A stretch of DNA of 41,661 bases from the NCBI GenBank assembly GCA_024695235.1, contig JAILIP010000006.1, positions 71,378-113,038 of the forward strand. The letters run 5' to 3'. Shown piece by piece: positions 16,086 through 32,270 of this stretch; the first letter of the stretch is position 1; the number at the start of each line of letters is the position of its first letter. The stretch is from Bacilli bacterium (GTDB lineage Bacteria; Bacillota_I; Bacilli_A; RFN20; CAG-826). The translations under genes were made by a program, and so were the position numbers. The notes beneath the pieces were generated by a model. It was not told the origin of the DNA, searched no databases, and was given only the letters and a program-made list of their open reading frames with translations.

Positions 16086-16763
16086 TTATATGGACTCTAT
16101 AATGTGCTTTGCAATCAATAGACCGGCTGTTGATGGAACCATAATCATTGATGCCGGTTTTTCTTTTTTAACAATTGGGGTTTCTTTTGAAAAGACAACG
16201 TTGATCGACTTTAAATCAACACTCTCTTTTCTTAAAAGATATCTTAGTCTTTTGGCGAGTGGATCATTTTCAGTTTTATGAAGCTTTGTAATCATCACAT
16301 CTTCAGGGTTGATTCTATTACCCATTCCTAAAGAAACAATGATTGGAATTTTTCTATCATTGGCAAACTTTATCAAAGATAACTTGCTTGGAATTTTATC
16401 AATTGCATCGACAATATAATCAATCTTTTTATCCTTGAATTCGCTAAGTGAGTTCTCATCTACAAACATATTGTGTTTTTCAATGATGATGTCTTTTGAA
16501 AAGTCTTTTGCGAAAGCTTCACAGACATCGACTTTGTTTTTGCCAATATCTTTAGATGTGTACATGATTTGACGATTGAGATTTGTTGGATCCACCACAT
16601 CAAAATCAACGATGATGAAATGCTTAAAACCAGAACGGAGCAAAGCATTAAAAGCAGTGCCTCCGACTCCACCCAAGCCAACGACCATAATGACTTTGTC
16701 ATTAAAAGATGTGATTTTGTCTTCACCTAATAGTTCTTTACTTCTTGATAAATAATCAGGCAT
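16086..16763 (-). CDS. tcdA: tRNA threonylcarbamoyladenosine dehydratase (TcdA-like)
   Basis: E1-like ThiF-fold enzyme that uses ATP to cyclise t6A37 of ANN-decoding tRNAs to ct6A. 225 residues, a little short of the usual 250. The nucleotide-binding loop GLGGVGG is at 29-35, followed by D-x-D (VDFDVVDPTNLNRQ) typical of E1 enzymes. The segment SLGMGNRINPEDV followed by DPLAKRLRYLLRK matches TcdA rather than ThiF or MoeB, which carry zinc cysteines absent here. It overlaps miaA by 8 bp; both enzymes act on position-37 purines, so shared regulation makes sense. Confidence 0.88.
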   Translation of the reverse strand: MPDYLSRSKELLGEDKITSFNDKVIMVVGLGGVGGTAFNALLRSGFKHFIIVDFDVVDPTNLNRQIMYTSKDIGKNKVDVCEAFAKDFSKDIIIEKHNMFVDENSLSEFKDKKIDYIVDAIDKIPSKLSLIKFANDRKIPIIVSLGMGNRINPEDVMITKLHKTENDPLAKRLRYLLRKESVDLKSINVVFSKETPIVKKEKPASMIMVPSTAGLLIAKHIIESI

Positions 16764-17631
16764 TTTTAATCATCTCCATTAATTCATCATCATTCTTATA
16801 AAATTCGGTTGGGAATTGATGACGAATATAAGTCATTTGTCTTTTAGCGTAGTTTCTTGTGTGTTGTTTGATTTTTTCGATAACCGAATCCAACGATTCC
16901 TCACCTTTAAAGTACGGGATATATTCTTTATAACCAATGGCTTGCATTGATTGAGGTTTATCTCCATATTTTTCGTATAAAGATCTCACTTCTTTCTCTA
17001 AACCTTGTTCAATCATCTTATCAACACGTTTATTGATTCTCTCATAGAGTTCTTCGCGTGGTAAATCTCTTACATAAAAGTGAACATCATCATATATTGG
17101 CTTATGATTTTGCTTTGCAATAATATCGCTTTTGGCCTCATTTTGTGAAAGATAAATTGCTAAAGCACGAAGTAATCTTTTGCGATTATTTGGATGAATC
17201 TTTTTTGCATCTTCAGGATCGATTTCTTCAAGTTTACGATGTAGTTCTTGATTGGATAAATTCTCATATGAAGACATATCTACTGCATCTTCATCTTTGA
17301 ACTCATAGTCATATAAAGCAGAGCGAATATATAAGCCACTTCCTCCAACAATTACGACATTTTTTCCTACGGAAAGAATTTCATCAACTTTCTTACGGAG
17401 ATTCTTTTGATAAACCATGATTGAATATGGCTCATTAGGTTCAACAAAGGAGAATAGATGATGTGGAACTTTATCAAAGTATTCCTTTGGAGGTTTTGCC
17501 ACTCCGATATCCATTTCCTTGTATGATTGGAAAGCATCTCCGTTAATAATCTCAGCGTTAAAAGATAAAGCAACCTTTAAGGCTGTTTCACTTTTTCCTA
17601 AACATGTTGGACCTGAGATAACAATTATCAT
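16756..17631 (-). CDS. miaA: tRNA dimethylallyltransferase
   Basis: Adds a dimethylallyl group to N6 of A37 in UNN-decoding tRNAs; the product (i6A) is the substrate of MiaB, encoded two genes upstream. 291 residues, normal for the family. P-loop SGPTCLGKSE (6-15), the DxxQ region reads GDAFQSYKEMDIG (31-43), and IVGGSGLYIRSALY (about 93-106) is conserved. The motif usually written ADSxQxY has Phe in place of Ser/Met. Overlaps the YlbF-family gene by 4 bp (ATGA). The isoprenoid donor could come from the MEP pathway that includes IspF. Confidence 0.96.
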   Translation of the reverse strand: MIIVISGPTCLGKSETALKVALSFNAEIINGDAFQSYKEMDIGVAKPPKEYFDKVPHHLFSFVEPNEPYSIMVYQKNLRKKVDEILSVGKNVVIVGGSGLYIRSALYDYEFKDEDAVDMSSYENLSNQELHRKLEEIDPEDAKKIHPNNRKRLLRALAIYLSQNEAKSDIIAKQNHKPIYDDVHFYVRDLPREELYERINKRVDKMIEQGLEKEVRSLYEKYGDKPQSMQAIGYKEYIPYFKGEESLDSVIEKIKQHTRNYAKRQMTYIRHQFPTEFYKNDDELMEMIKNA

Positions 17632-17939
17632 TGGAGTGAATCCTTTATTTGTTCGAGTAATGCGACGACTTCTTCTTTAAGTGACAAGTAGTTTTGATAA
17701 AGTGGGTTATCCTTGAGTTTGTTATCTTTGGTTTCAAATAGTGTCTTCTCTTTTAGATACACTTCATCATTTTGTACATTCTCACACATCTTCTTTTGAT
17801 GTTCTCTAACTTCTTTATCTAGTTTTACTAGATATTCGTCGTTTTCAATTTGAGATTTAACATGTAAATATTCTTGGATTAAAGGAAGAGAAAATAACTC
17901 TTCTTTGACATCTAAAAGGGCTTCATCAACGCTTTTCAT
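17628..17939 (-). CDS. ymcA: YlbF/YmcA-family protein (Y-complex component)
   Basis: 103-residue, nearly all-helical, charged protein of the Com_YlbF family. In B. subtilis, YlbF, YmcA and YaaT form a complex that directs RNase Y to operon mRNAs, and ymcA also lies next to miaB. The same order here (miaB-ymcA-miaA) and rny in the same operon support YmcA over YlbF. It is shorter than B. subtilis YmcA (143). Only one Cys (C52 region, KKMCEN) is present, so the Fe-S ligands reported for the complex are not all visible here. Overlaps both neighbours by 4 bp. Confidence 0.78.
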   Translation of the reverse strand: MKSVDEALLDVKEELFSLPLIQEYLHVKSQIENDEYLVKLDKEVREHQKKMCENVQNDEVYLKEKTLFETKDNKLKDNPLYQNYLSLKEEVVALLEQIKDSLQ

Positions 17940-19375
17940 TTAACGAGTTCTCCCATTAACGAGTAGACGTGAGATTCGTTGATTTTCACGTTGACGATTT
18001 GCCCCACCAAGGAGATATCTCCTTTGAAGTGAACAAGTTTATTTGTTTCAGTATATCCAGAAAGCATTTTAGGATTCTTTTCTGAAGCGCCTTCTACTAA
18101 TACAGGATAAGTATTTCCAACCATCTTTGATGATGATTCCCCTACTGTTACTTCAAGTTCTTTAACTAATTCTCTAAAGCGTTGTGATTTTTCTTTAGCA
18201 GTAACGTTATCTTTTATCTTCGCTGCGGGAGTGTTGTTTCGTGGTGAATAGATGAATGTAAACGCCGAATCATAACGGACATATTTCACCATTTCAACAG
18301 TCTTTAAGAATTGCTCATATGTTTCATTTGGGAAACCGACAATGATATCTGTGGAGATAGCAACTCCTGGGATTTTTCTTTTGATTAAATCAACGAGCTC
18401 TTTATATTGAGCAGAAGTATACCTTCTACCCATGAGTTTAAGAATCTCATCATCACCACTTTGAACTGGCAAATGAATGTATTTCATGATGTTTTTGTGT
18501 TTAGCAATAACATCAATCATTTCTTCTTTAAAATCCCAAGGGTGAGATGTTAAAAATCTAACGCGAGGAATACCAATTTTAGCAACTTCATCTAAAAGAT
18601 GAGCAAATGATGAGCCATCATTCAAATCCTTGCCATAAGCGTTAACGTTTTGGCCAAGTAATGTAACTTCTTGATAACCAGCGTCTTTAAGTTCTTGGCA
18701 TTCTTTAAGGATATCTACCATCTTACGTGAACGTTCTTTTCCACGTGTATATGGAACGATGCAATATGTGCAGAACTTATCGCAGCCATATGAGATGTTC
18801 ACGAATGCTTTGAATGAAGATAATCTAGTGCTTGGTAAGTTTTCTTTGATATCGCTTGGAAGAGACTTAACATCGATCAAACGAACGCGTTTGGTAACGA
18901 CTTCATTTAGCATTGATGCAAGTTCATAGATGTTATGGGTTCCAAATATCAAATCAACATGCTTATAGATATCAAGAATCTTCTCGATGATGTGCTTTTG
19001 TTGGACCATGCATCCGCATATAGCAATTATAGTGTCTTTTCTAGCAGCTTTAATGGCTTTTAGATTACCAATGTAGCCAAAGACTTTGTCTTCAGCATTT
19101 TCTCTAACAGCACATGTGTTGATGATAATGATATTCGCATCTTTCTCACTTGCGACCTTTTTAAAGCCGGCTTTTTCTAAAATGCCGCCCATCACTTCTT
19201 CATCACGATAGTTAGCTTGGCAACCAAGAGTGTGAATAAAATAAGTTCTTCCTTTAGCAAAGCTAGCTAATGTAGAAGGAATAGTTATTTCTTCATAATT
19301 AAAAGAGAAAGACAAATTTCTTCGTCTTTCAAGTTTATCATCTGGAAGGGAAATAAATTCGCACTTATTTGCCAT
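17936..19375 (-). CDS. miaB: tRNA-2-methylthio-N6-dimethylallyladenosine synthase
   Basis: Radical SAM methylthiotransferase that converts i6A37 to ms2i6A37. With the ATG at 19375 it has 479 residues. The SD GGAGAT lies 6 bases upstream; a TTG four codons earlier lies in the SD itself and is unlikely to be the start. Auxiliary-cluster Cys at 52, 88 and 122 (GCQANY, NTCAVRE, GCMVQQ), radical SAM CDKFCTYC with Cys 198, 202 and 205, and a C-terminal TRAM domain. It needs two [4Fe-4S] clusters, which the Suf system of this window could provide. Overlaps the end of ymdB by 11 bp. Confidence 0.96.
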   Translation of the reverse strand: MANKCEFISLPDDKLERRRNLSFSFNYEEITIPSTLASFAKGRTYFIHTLGCQANYRDEEVMGGILEKAGFKKVASEKDANIIIINTCAVRENAEDKVFGYIGNLKAIKAARKDTIIAICGCMVQQKHIIEKILDIYKHVDLIFGTHNIYELASMLNEVVTKRVRLIDVKSLPSDIKENLPSTRLSSFKAFVNISYGCDKFCTYCIVPYTRGKERSRKMVDILKECQELKDAGYQEVTLLGQNVNAYGKDLNDGSSFAHLLDEVAKIGIPRVRFLTSHPWDFKEEMIDVIAKHKNIMKYIHLPVQSGDDEILKLMGRRYTSAQYKELVDLIKRKIPGVAISTDIIVGFPNETYEQFLKTVEMVKYVRYDSAFTFIYSPRNNTPAAKIKDNVTAKEKSQRFRELVKELEVTVGESSSKMVGNTYPVLVEGASEKNPKMLSGYTETNKLVHFKGDISLVGQIVNVKINESHVYSLMGELVK

Positions 19376-20159
19376 TACTATCTCCAACTAAGTTAATGGT
19401 GATGATACTCTTGGCGAGTTTATTCTCATCATCAATATCAATTAACACGGCATTAACCATCTCTTTATCGTCTTGATTGATTTCAAAACGTTGATCGGAA
19501 CCAAAGATGGTTTTGCCAATGACTGTTTCTTTATCAAAACCAAGCACTCCGTTAGCCGCTCCACACATTCCAACATCGCTTATATATGCTGTACCGTGTT
19601 CAAGAACACGAGCATCGTTTGTTTGGACATGTGTATGAGTGCATACGACAGCGCTGACTTGACCATCGAAGACATTTCCAAAGCAAAGCTTTTCTCCAGT
19701 TGCTTCGGCATGGAAATCAACAATGTGAACGACGTCTTCTTCGTTTTCATCAAGAAGTTCTTTCAAAGAAAGATATGGAGAATTAACTTCTTGTTTCATA
19801 AAGGCAACGCCTAAGATATTGGTCACTCTTACTTTGATGCCATTAACATCAAATACTTGTGAGCCAACACCACCGAAATCATTGATGAGGTTGAGTGGTC
19901 TAATGAGACATGTCGCACGATCAATATAATTATTGATATCGTTTTTAGACATGTAGTGATTACCCAAGGTAATAGCGTCCACTCCAGCATCAATGAGTTC
20001 GTTATAGTGCTTTTCAATGAGTCCTTTTCCATGAGTAGCATTCTCACCATTGGCAATAACAAAATCTGGTTGGTATTTTTTTACCAAACTTGGGAGAAAA
20101 TGCTTTACGGCATTGCGGCCAATACGGCCTACGATATCACCAAAGAAAAGAACTTTCAT
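19365..20159 (-). CDS. ymdB: YmdB metallophosphoesterase (2',3'-cyclic nucleotide phosphodiesterase)
   Basis: 264 residues, the same length as B. subtilis YmdB, a cyclic-nucleotide phosphodiesterase that affects biofilm formation and RNase Y-dependent RNA levels. Visible metal motifs: FFGDIVGRIGR (5-15), ANGENATHGKG (36-46), TLGNH (64-68), and DFHAEAT with CTHTHVQT in the second half. It starts 2 bases after the rny stop without an SD of its own, so it probably depends on coupling with rny. Position after rny is conserved with Bacillus. Confidence 0.94.
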   Translation of the reverse strand: MKVLFFGDIVGRIGRNAVKHFLPSLVKKYQPDFVIANGENATHGKGLIEKHYNELIDAGVDAITLGNHYMSKNDINNYIDRATCLIRPLNLINDFGGVGSQVFDVNGIKVRVTNILGVAFMKQEVNSPYLSLKELLDENEEDVVHIVDFHAEATGEKLCFGNVFDGQVSAVVCTHTHVQTNDARVLEHGTAYISDVGMCGAANGVLGFDKETVIGKTIFGSDQRFEINQDDKEMVNAVLIDIDDENKLAKSIITINLVGDSNGK

Positions 20160-20161
20160 AA

Positions 20162-21724
20162 TTATTTAGCTGTTTCAACAGCGCGATATTCACGGATGAC
20201 TGAAACTTTGATTTGACCTGGATAAGTCATTTCAGTTTCAATTCTTTCACGGATATCACGTGCAAGTTTAAAGGCAGATAAGTCATCGACTTTATCTGGG
20301 ACTACCATAACGCGGACTTCACGACCACTTTGCATAGCAAAGCATTGATATACTCCGTCGTATGATTTACAAATTGTTTCGAGTTGTTCGATACGTTTGA
20401 TGTAGTTTTCAAGTGTTTCACTACGTGCACCTGGGCGAGCAGCTGAAAGAGTATCAGCAGCTTGGACTAAGTGAGCGATGATACATTTTGCAGGAACATC
20501 ACCATGGTGAGATTCAATGGAGTTAATAACTACATCTGGCTCACCATACTTCTTAGCAAGTCTTGAACCAAGTTCAACGTGTGAACCATCTTGTTCGAAG
20601 TCAACTGATTTACCAATATCGTGGAGAAGACCTGCTCTCTTAGCGAGATTTTGGTCTAAACCAAGTTCAGCTGCCATGATACCTGCAAGGTAGGCAACTT
20701 CCATTGAGTGATCATAAGCGTTTTGGCCATATGATGTACGATATTTAAGTCTACCAACATACATTAATAAATCTTTATTAATCTTAGGTAAACCAAGTTT
20801 GAAGGCTGCTTCTTCACCGGCTTTACGGATTGATTCGTCCATTTCGCCTTGGACTTTAGCAGTAACTTCTTCAATTCTTCCTGGTTGGATACGTCCATCC
20901 TTAATAAGAATATCAAGGGTGCGACGAGCAATTTCACGACGAATTGGATTAAAGCAGCTAACTGTGATAACTTCTGGAGTGTCATCGATAATTAAATCAA
21001 CACCGAGAAGTTGTTCTAAAGAACGAATGTTACGACCTTCACGACCAATAATACGTCCTTTCATTTCATCACTTGGAAGAGCGACAGTCGTAACTGTTCT
21101 TTCAGTGACTGCTTCTTGAGAGAAGCGTGAGATGGCTAAGCCAAGCATGTTCTTAGCTTTTTCATCACATTCTGCTTTTGCTTCATCTTCTTTGTTTTTG
21201 ATGTAAGCAGCGATTTCCATCGACATCTTGCTTTCAACACGTGCAAAAATTTCGTCTCTTGCTTCCTTAACTGAAAGTTGAGCGACTTTTTCTAGTTCAG
21301 CAATGATGGAATCGATTTTAGATTGAAGGAGAGCTTCCTTCTTATCACATTCTCTTAATCTACGAGATAATGTTTCACTCTTTTCTTCAAGAGCGTTTTC
21401 TTTGTTAAGTAAGTTAGCATCACGTTTGTCGATATTTGCTTCGCGTTGATTTAATTTGTTTTCAAGATTGGCGTATTCTTGTTTTCTTTCGCGAATATCG
21501 CGATCAGCTTCTTGTCTTAATTCAGCGACGAGTTGTTTCCCGTCTAATTGAGCGTTTTTCCTAATTTGTTCAGCTTTAATTTCAGCATCACGAATGATCT
21601 TTTCAGCTTTGCGATCAGCTTCTTTTGCTTTAAAAGCAGGAAGCAATTTTGTAATCAAAAATGTTCCTAAAACTCCAACGATTAAAGCTACGATAACTAG
21701 GATTAGCCAGACATACCATTCCAT
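20162..21724 (-). CDS. rny: Ribonuclease Y
   Basis: Membrane-anchored endoribonuclease that starts mRNA decay in many Firmicutes. 520 residues, identical in length to B. subtilis. N-terminal membrane helix (4-27), a long charged coiled coil (about 30-200), KH domain with [10 protein letters not shown] (223-232), HD domain with LLHDIGK (H368-D369) and a C-terminal domain. The SD is a strong AGGAGGT, but a matching anti-SD lies upstream in a long leader, so expression may be controlled by RNA structure. First gene of the long operon that includes its presumed partner YmcA. Confidence 0.97.
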
Positions 21725-21884
21725 GTCTATACCTCCTAATATGTGAAGATGTTTATCATAGATAAAACATCAATAATTATGATTATTACCGGGAGGTTAT
21801 TACCCAAAAAAGTGGGGCAATAACAATATTTATGTTAAGGATCGAAATCCTGATAAATCTAAGGTAATAAGTATCTTGCGATAC
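21725..21884 (-). promoter_or_regulatory. Structured 5' leader of rny with SD-sequestering option
   Basis: About 160 nt between the predicted start site and the rny ATG. In transcript order: GTATC-GCAA-GATAC at the very 5' end (21871-21884); AGGAT-UUCG-AUCCT (21838-21851); a long stem GTTATTGCCC/GGGTAATAAC (21796-21824); ACCTCC (21792-21797), fully complementary to the SD GGAGGT (21731-21736); and a hairpin GATGTTTTATC/GATAAACATC (21748-21771) inside the SD/anti-SD arch. The anti-SD shares two bases with the long stem, so the two pairings compete. Not a riboswitch class that I recognise. Confidence 0.5.
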
Positions 21885-21918: not shown

Positions 21919-21943
21919 AAAAGAAAAACGCAACTAGTGCGTT
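21917..21943 (-). terminator. Terminator of the gpsB-to-recA operon
   Basis: Minus-strand stem AACGCA / CTAGT / TGCGTT followed by TTTCTTTTTT. The recA stop codon is partly inside the stem. Confidence 0.8.
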
Positions 21944-24126: not shown

Positions 24127-24463
24127 GTTCCGATCCTATAAGCCATGTTTTGTCGAGGATAATAATTTATCTATACACATAGTGTATGCCCATCAGGATT
24201 TGATTCTCCTTTTGTGCTTCCCTTACCAAATTTAGGTTTCTCGCTTGTGGGGTTTACCCGTTCCACTTGATATTTCTATCAATATCGTCACTGTGGCACT
24301 TTCAGGGCATAGTCATGACCGAAGTTTTAGACATATCCCGCCGTTATGCACTCCTGCATACCTAGCGTTATTTCTTCCGCTAGCGCAATCACTACTACCG
24401 TCTCAGGTAGTGCGAGCATGGACTTTCCTCTAGCTAATAGCCAGCAATTATCCAGATCGGATT
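24127..24463 (-). ncRNA. rnpB: RNase P RNA (Bacillus type)
   Basis: Catalytic RNA that matures tRNA 5' ends. On the minus strand it has the universal P4 segment GAGGAAAGTCCATGCTCGCA, AAGTGCCACAGTGACGA, GTGGAAC...GGTAAACCCC, GCGAGAAACC, and near the 3' end ACAAAACATGGCTTATAG. P1 is closed by TCCGATC (24455-24461) and GATCGGA (24129-24135). About 337 nt, a little shorter than B. subtilis (about 400). The 5' end overlaps or abuts the gpsB stop codon. The ends are set from P1 pairing and may be off by a few bases. Confidence 0.95.
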
Positions 24464-32135: not shown

Positions 32136-32159
32136 TTCATCATCAAATAAATGACTTGT

Positions 32160-32258
32160 TTCTTTCATCCAGACTTTACTGTCGCCTCTAGAATCTCACT
32201 AGATCTGCCTATTCGGCTCGTGGGGTATACCACCGGTTAAGGAATTTCACCTTGCCCT
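32160..32258 (-). promoter_or_regulatory. FMN riboswitch (RFN element) controlling ribU
   Basis: The minus strand shows the RFN consensus in order: AGGGCAAGGTGAAATTCC, ACCGGTGGTAT, CCCACGAGCC, GATCTAGTGAGATTCTAGA, GGCGACAGTAAAGTCTGGAT and GAAAGAA. These are the P1-P6 conserved segments that bind FMN. FMN binding should stabilise P1 and release the hairpin at 32112-32135, shutting off ribU. Confidence 0.95.
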
Positions 32259-32270
32259 GAAACTAAACTG

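Follow-up and report, generated by a model that had tools for sequence, protein, structure and literature searches.

RNase Y is the enzyme that initiates mRNA decay, and its recognition of substrates follows little sequence consensus. In Bacillus subtilis, RNase Y makes its own mRNA less stable by cutting the 164-nt 5' UTR and the early ORF, and RNase J1 finishes the degradation (PMC10303841). Control is exerted there mainly via the first 100 nt of the ORF; the first 50 nt of the leader are AU rich, one stem-loop lies in its middle, and no conserved multihelix core or +1 hairpin has been described (PMC10303841). Cleavage by the enzyme favors G/A in open, AU-rich RNA that is followed by structure (PMC11780869). 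In Escherichia coli, RNase E binds a stem-loop in its own leader, and 5'-terminal stem-loops stabilize mRNAs such as ompA, papA, and aprE (reviewed in PMC3997798). Besides, BsRppH prefers G at position +2 of the transcript (PMC5419742).

We analyzed the rny leader in a 41,661-nt stretch of DNA from a Bacilli bacterium, here called the window. It resembles the B. subtilis leader in belonging to the same gene and length class (160 versus 164 nt), in having its own sigma-A-type promoter, and in being a plausible entry point for RNase Y and RNase J, whereas it differs from the B. subtilis description in its multihelix core and its hairpin at the predicted +1. Like the rne 5' UTR of E. coli, it holds a conserved structured element in the own leader of a decay-initiating, membrane-associated endonuclease, although the two enzymes and the two RNAs are unrelated, the rny hairpin starts at the predicted +1 with a junction after it, and binding to the rny leader is putative. 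With the stabilizing stem-loops of ompA, papA, and aprE it shares a hairpin at or next to the first nucleotide, but the rny hairpin leads straight into a conserved junction, with no intervening bases, and it belongs to a nuclease mRNA in many genera. Orphan riboswitch candidates are similar in that their 5' leaders contain a compact junction with covariation and conserved unpaired bases, whereas the rny element is tied to one gene that itself encodes an RNase. The multihelix RNA element, and not an anti-Shine-Dalgarno switch, is the conserved feature of the rny leader in the GTDB family of the window.

The rny locus and the plan of its leader

The rny gene (20162 to 21724), recognized in Pfam by its RNase_Y_N, KH, and HD domains, lies on the minus strand, and therefore its leader reads from 21884 to 21725. 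An earlier interpretation made without database searches, referred to below as the sequence-only reading, had proposed this 160-nt leader with no strand given, and its extent is borne out. A consensus scan identified the rny promoter at 21919 to 21891 (minus strand), consisting of a -35-like TTTGCA (21919 to 21914), a 17-nt spacer, and an extended -10 element, TG-A-TATAAT (21896 to 21891), with 10 of 12 consensus matches and TG preceding the -10 hexamer. A TATAAT-like hexamer is found at an equal distance in most rny leaders of the family. The sole terminator-like site on the minus strand (21943 to 21927) follows recA and lies upstream of the rny promoter, and the minus-strand scan detected no intrinsic terminator inside the rny leader of the kind that a transcription attenuator would contain.

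Downstream of rny, same-strand ORFs that overlap or adjoin one another were assigned with Pfam as ymdB (20159 to 19365), miaB (19387 to 17936), a YlbF/YmcA-family gene (17939 to 17628), and miaA (17631 to 16756), all on the minus strand, and these four genes (16756 to 20159) are probably on the rny transcript. The RNA-modification operon of the sequence-only reading is partly right; the string is made up of rny, ymdB, miaB, the YlbF/YmcA-family gene, and miaA. The YlbF/YmcA-family gene, situated between miaB and miaA, matched Com_YlbF with an E value of 7.7e-6; members of the family make up the Y-complex of B. subtilis, which guides RNase Y. Elsewhere in the window, a class B RNase P RNA (24134 to 24459, minus strand, 263 bits) and an FMN riboswitch (32153 to 32268, minus strand, 103 bits) were found.

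The leader runs from P0 at the predicted +1 through P1, P2a/P2b, P3, and P4 to the Shine-Dalgarno (SD) sequence, all on the minus strand. P0 is the hairpin GUAUC-GCAA-GAUAC (21884 to 21871), whose first paired base is the predicted +1, as judged by the fixed distance to the -10 hexamer and by compensated pairs. The 5' strand of P1, UUAUUACC (21870 to 21863), directly adjoins P0 and was assigned by its invariance in the genus and by covariation elsewhere, while the 3' strand, GGUAAUAA (21790 to 21783), was assigned by a genus motif and covariation. Between its strands P1 encloses the UUCG hairpin and the 10-bp stem P3. In the minimum-free-energy fold, P2 (AUUUAU/AUAAAU, 21858 to 21828) surrounds the UUCG-capped P2b, AGGAU-UUCG-AUCCU (21851 to 21838), and P3 is formed by GUUAUUGCCC, 9 nt, and GGGUAAUAAC (21824 to 21796). 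P4, a hairpin of GAUGUUUUAUC-UAU-GAUAAACAUC (21771 to 21748) recognized by segment folding against shuffles, lies upstream of the SD sequence GGAGGU (21736 to 21731). The 5'-terminal hairpin, the UUCG-capped hairpin, and the 10-bp stem had all been seen in the sequence-only reading, and each is present. The fold of the whole leader is stronger than chance (z = -2.7), with 2 of 200 shuffles equally good.

Conservation and covariation of the element

In the genus of the window, rny was found in all 24 genomes, and the pattern of CTTATTACC and GGTAATAA separated by 50 to 80 nt was found in 23 of them, the start of rny being cut by a contig end in the 24th. The P1 5' strand UUAUUACC is invariant among the aligned genus sequences, and P0 is always a perfect or near-perfect stem of differing sequence (GUAUC/GAUAC, GUACUUU/AAAGUAC, or GUACC/GGUAC); a P4 hairpin and then the SD sequence follow downstream. 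Searching the rest of the family for the exact motif gave isolated single matches here and there; one, upstream of rny in genus g29, resembled the element, whereas the others inspected did not.

The plan recurs in other genera of the family, where P1 is shorter and a further hairpin, P2a, is present. Their consensus reads [P0]-UUACCUAUA(G/U)AUUCUC..GAGAA..UUAUCAGG..CCUGUUA..AUAUA..[P3]..UUUUAGGUAA-[P4]-AUAGAAAGGA-AUG. The family-level P1 is UUACCUA/UAGGUAA, compared with UUAUUACC/GGUAAUAA in the window genus, and it encloses the conserved helices P2a and P2b plus the variable P3; beyond the pairing, the bases CCUAUA, UUAUC, GUUA, and AUAUA of the core are near-invariant. A covariance model (R1) built from 11 leaders of these genera matched 60 of 224 family genomes, representing 15 of 35 genera, the E values of the covariance models being rough. 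The window copy and most genus copies score below the cutoff of the model, and what joins the genus copies to the family element is their common plan, together with the exact motif and their position. A MAFFT alignment of both groups was left out because P1 was misaligned.

The element occurs in one copy per genome with one exception, genome G120, whose two copies (G120:C1:20761-20864 and G120:C18:8391-8495) each lie beside one of two rny matches and perhaps reflect a mixed assembly. Among 70 aligned copies, 68 are located 21 to 104 nt upstream of rny on the same strand (median, 57), and the remaining 2 directly adjoin the rny match. At the sensitivity of the model, no element was found beside any gene but rny in 224 family, 279 order, and 395 class genomes; the model gave no match in 55 genomes from other families of the order and none outside the family in the 395-genome class sample, and a phage collection gave no match either. 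Nearly all genomes are metagenome assembled, and the named records among them are given as Erysipelotrichaceae, Bacillales, or Bacilli, uncultured and of gut and rumen origin. In six leaders of genus g19 (L224 to L226 and L231 to L233), rny seems to stand close behind the upstream gene with a short leader lacking the element, an apparent loss. Since some g19 leaders look shortened or lost in this way, the element is not indispensable.

Covariation of the leader stems, which the sequence-only reading had offered as a check, was found. In alignment A4 of the 70 copies, 95.0% of the cells were paired, compared with 88.9% after shuffling, and pairing fell to 24 to 44% in slid controls with the partner moved by 1 to 3 columns. 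Thirteen of 21 pairs changed on both sides with pairing kept, versus 4.9 in shuffles, and 0 of 500 shuffles reached as high, a count that is not a probability because A4 was fitted to the structure of the element and its sequences are related. P1 was rebuilt with other bases in genus g8 (UUAACUAU/AUAGUUAA), in genus g3 (GCCACC/GGUGGC in leader L084), and also in g1, and the compensated pair types of P0 are GUACC/GGUAC, GUAUC/GAUAC, GUGC/GCAC, and, in g7, GUAGC/GCUAC. The rebuilding of P1 in g8 and g3 and of P0 in g7 gives support independent of the covariance model. The counterpart of P2b, UCAGG/CCUGU, contributes five pairs with changes on both sides in A4. The enclosing helix P2 showed no covariation; its family form (UAUA with AUA) is weak and its pairs hardly vary, so that covariation speaks neither for nor against it. 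Compared with dinucleotide shuffles, better folding was seen for whole leaders (mean z, -2.87; 77 leaders), for P3, whose sequence varies among relatives (mean z, -1.68; 77 leaders), and for the P4 segments (mean z, -2.25; 76 leaders), which have 51 different 5' strands among 77 leaders. Judged by compensatory changes in excess of the controls and by its constant position just before rny, the leader is a conserved, covarying, structured cis-regulatory RNA. It also appears to be undescribed: Rfam gave no match over the leader at the gathering threshold and only a chance SNORD111 (E = 4.6) at a relaxed one, and no rny leader element of such kind was found in the literature under obvious names.

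A multihelix junction with near-invariant bases beyond the pairing resembles a ligand-binding core, and the P1-P2a-P2b-P3 junction might be the aptamer of a metabolite riboswitch that controls the translation or stability of rny; with no U-run terminator in the leader, control would have to be of one of these two kinds. A metabolite aptamer usually serves several genes. The rny element, on the other hand, never accompanies transporter or biosynthetic genes, and the usual, though not obligatory, recurrence upstream of several genes of a pathway was not seen in the genomes searched. Given this restriction to rny at one copy per genome, the lack of an Rfam match, and SD sequences that are not unusually buried, we regard a small-ligand riboswitch as rather improbable.

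The complement of the SD sequence and possible alternative folds

The sequence-only reading held that ACCUCC hides the SD sequence in a two-state switch with the 10-bp stem. ACCUCC (21797 to 21792, minus strand) is indeed an exact complement of GGAGGU (21736 to 21731). It shares bases with the 10-bp stem, as had been claimed, but only two of them, and it lies in the junction strand inside P1, and SD pairing therefore competes with P1, the main competitor, which had been missed, rather than mainly with the stem. Nested folding gave -44.2 kcal/mol with P1 and -42.7 kcal/mol with SD:anti-SD pairing enforced, and the two helices, with pair probabilities of about 0.60 and 0.33, could form together only as a pseudoknot. 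Two mutually exclusive folds that differ by just 1.5 kcal/mol, together with an SD unpaired probability of about 0.1 in the window, are what one would want of a translational switch in which the SD sequence is covered once the 10-bp stem or P1 opens. In the relatives, however, no conserved anti-SD exclusive with another helix was found: a perfect anti-SD hexamer occurred in 1 of 78 leaders, compared with 3.2 expected by shuffling (AGGAGG was counted as the window SD hexamer, so that ACCUCC:GGAGGU of the window is an additional case that leaves the conclusion unchanged). No relative carries ACCUCC against its own SD sequence; the pair is confined to the window species and may be accidental. Moreover, the SD sequences of relatives are slightly more open than expected (mean unpaired probability of 0.42 over 77 leaders versus 0.34 with shuffled leaders; 0.10 in the window), and SD burial as a general feature was rejected. 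SD hiding may take place in the window species, but it is not what selection has kept, and we consider it very improbable that a translational switch of this kind accounts for the leader.

We also noted a possible alternative hairpin, AAUAAU-CAUA-AUUAUU (21787 to 21772, minus strand), identified from complementarity counts at the genus level, that would open P1. In it the P1 3' strand pairs with a downstream AUUAUU, and such pairing reaches at least 5 bp in 14 of 23 genus leaders versus 22% of shuffles, which is only suggestive of a second, P1/anti-P1 fold in the genus of the window.

The 5' end and a proposed RNase Y feedback

The first paired base of P0 lies exactly 6 nt past the -10 hexamer in 85 leaders, which places it at the predicted +1, the start site being deduced from the -10 hexamer, and thus within the few nucleotides of the 5' end that characterize terminal stabilizing stem-loops. 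The second base of the transcript is nearly always U. In the genome of the window itself, a hairpin at a P0-like place followed 4 of 37 promoter-like sites, rny included, and was no commoner there than at other offsets. In other families of the order, which the model does not reach, P0 at the predicted +1 of rny was seen by eye. In family f2 (L251, L254, L256, L257, and L259), the rny hairpin at the predicted +1 is followed by AUANAAGAUU ... AAUCUUUU, a P1-like pair of quite different sequence, which is perhaps a distant form of the same element. In genus g19 (L221, L223, and L227), the P0 5' strand is complementary to bases just upstream of the SD sequence; in L221, UAUCAAAAAG is complementary to CUUUUUGAUA beside AAAGGAG, and this could link the 5' end to the ribosome-binding site.

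A hairpin that starts at the predicted +1 and covaries would suit a purely passive stabilizer, in which P0 (and P4) only shield the mRNA from 5' exonucleolysis for constant high expression with no feedback, as 5'-terminal stem-loops do on ompA, papA, and aprE mRNAs (PMC3997798). A single hairpin would suffice for that purpose, and the covarying P1-P2a-P2b junction with its near-invariant bases, as well as the tie to rny, would be left unexplained; we think such a role unlikely. Passive stabilization and the metabolite riboswitch are the main rivals to feedback by RNase Y.

We lean, with modest confidence, toward the rny leader being a cis-acting element that sets the stability, and thereby the output, of its own transcript with feedback by RNase Y. 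RNase Y autoregulation is the best available logic for a leader that sits on the nuclease's own mRNA and whose occurrence is restricted to rny, and it is drawn from B. subtilis rny and E. coli rne. With +1 paired and +2 nearly always U rather than G, the 5' end would lend itself poorly to pyrophosphate removal and to attack by RNase J-type 5' exonucleases, homologues of which are encoded in all 24 genus genomes. If P0 closes the 5'-end route, inactivation of the mRNA would proceed mainly via internal entry, and RNase Y would be the natural enzyme for this, acting either within the conserved AU-rich junctions or after docking on the folded core. The rny mRNA would then be destroyed when RNase Y is in excess and spared when the enzyme is occupied by other substrates. 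Through the probable cotranscription of the YlbF/YmcA-family gene, a likely RNase Y specificity factor would come under the same control. Counting against RNase Y feedback, about half of the relatives have U in place of the G of the GA-type site (AUAGAUU), the B. subtilis precedent has no structure of this kind and acts mostly via the ORF, some g19 leaders seem to do without the element, and structural conservation alone does not identify the binding partner. Another regulator, such as a YlbF/YmcA-type protein, a ribosomal or cold-shock protein, or an sRNA, might bind the element and report the RNA-metabolic state; the YlbF/YmcA-family gene in the rny string and the complementarity of P0 to bases beside the SD sequence in some g19 leaders such as L221 would fit this, to which we give only a slight chance.

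Going further than RNase Y feedback as such, the element may represent an undescribed class of RNA acting as an mRNA-decay sensor, in which P0 at +1 blocks 5'-end-dependent decay, the conserved junction is a dedicated site for RNase Y docking or cleavage, and the mRNA reads free RNase Y activity and so sets the decay capacity, possibly with P1/anti-P1 switching. We advance this fuller model tentatively, as possible but somewhat doubtful.

To our knowledge, little is understood of how the overall capacity for mRNA decay is set in Gram-positive cells. The element probably lets the cell tune its amount of RNase Y, and if the feedback holds, it would work like the nuclease autoregulatory leaders of the rne and rny type. 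An RNA whose fold has been retained in evolution on the transcript of the enzyme itself is an obvious candidate for a docking site or substrate that RNase Y recognizes specifically and with high affinity. If this is true, the RNase E leader would have a structurally defined counterpart in Gram-positive bacteria, and the element gives a consensus for a search in other RNase Y-dependent bacteria.
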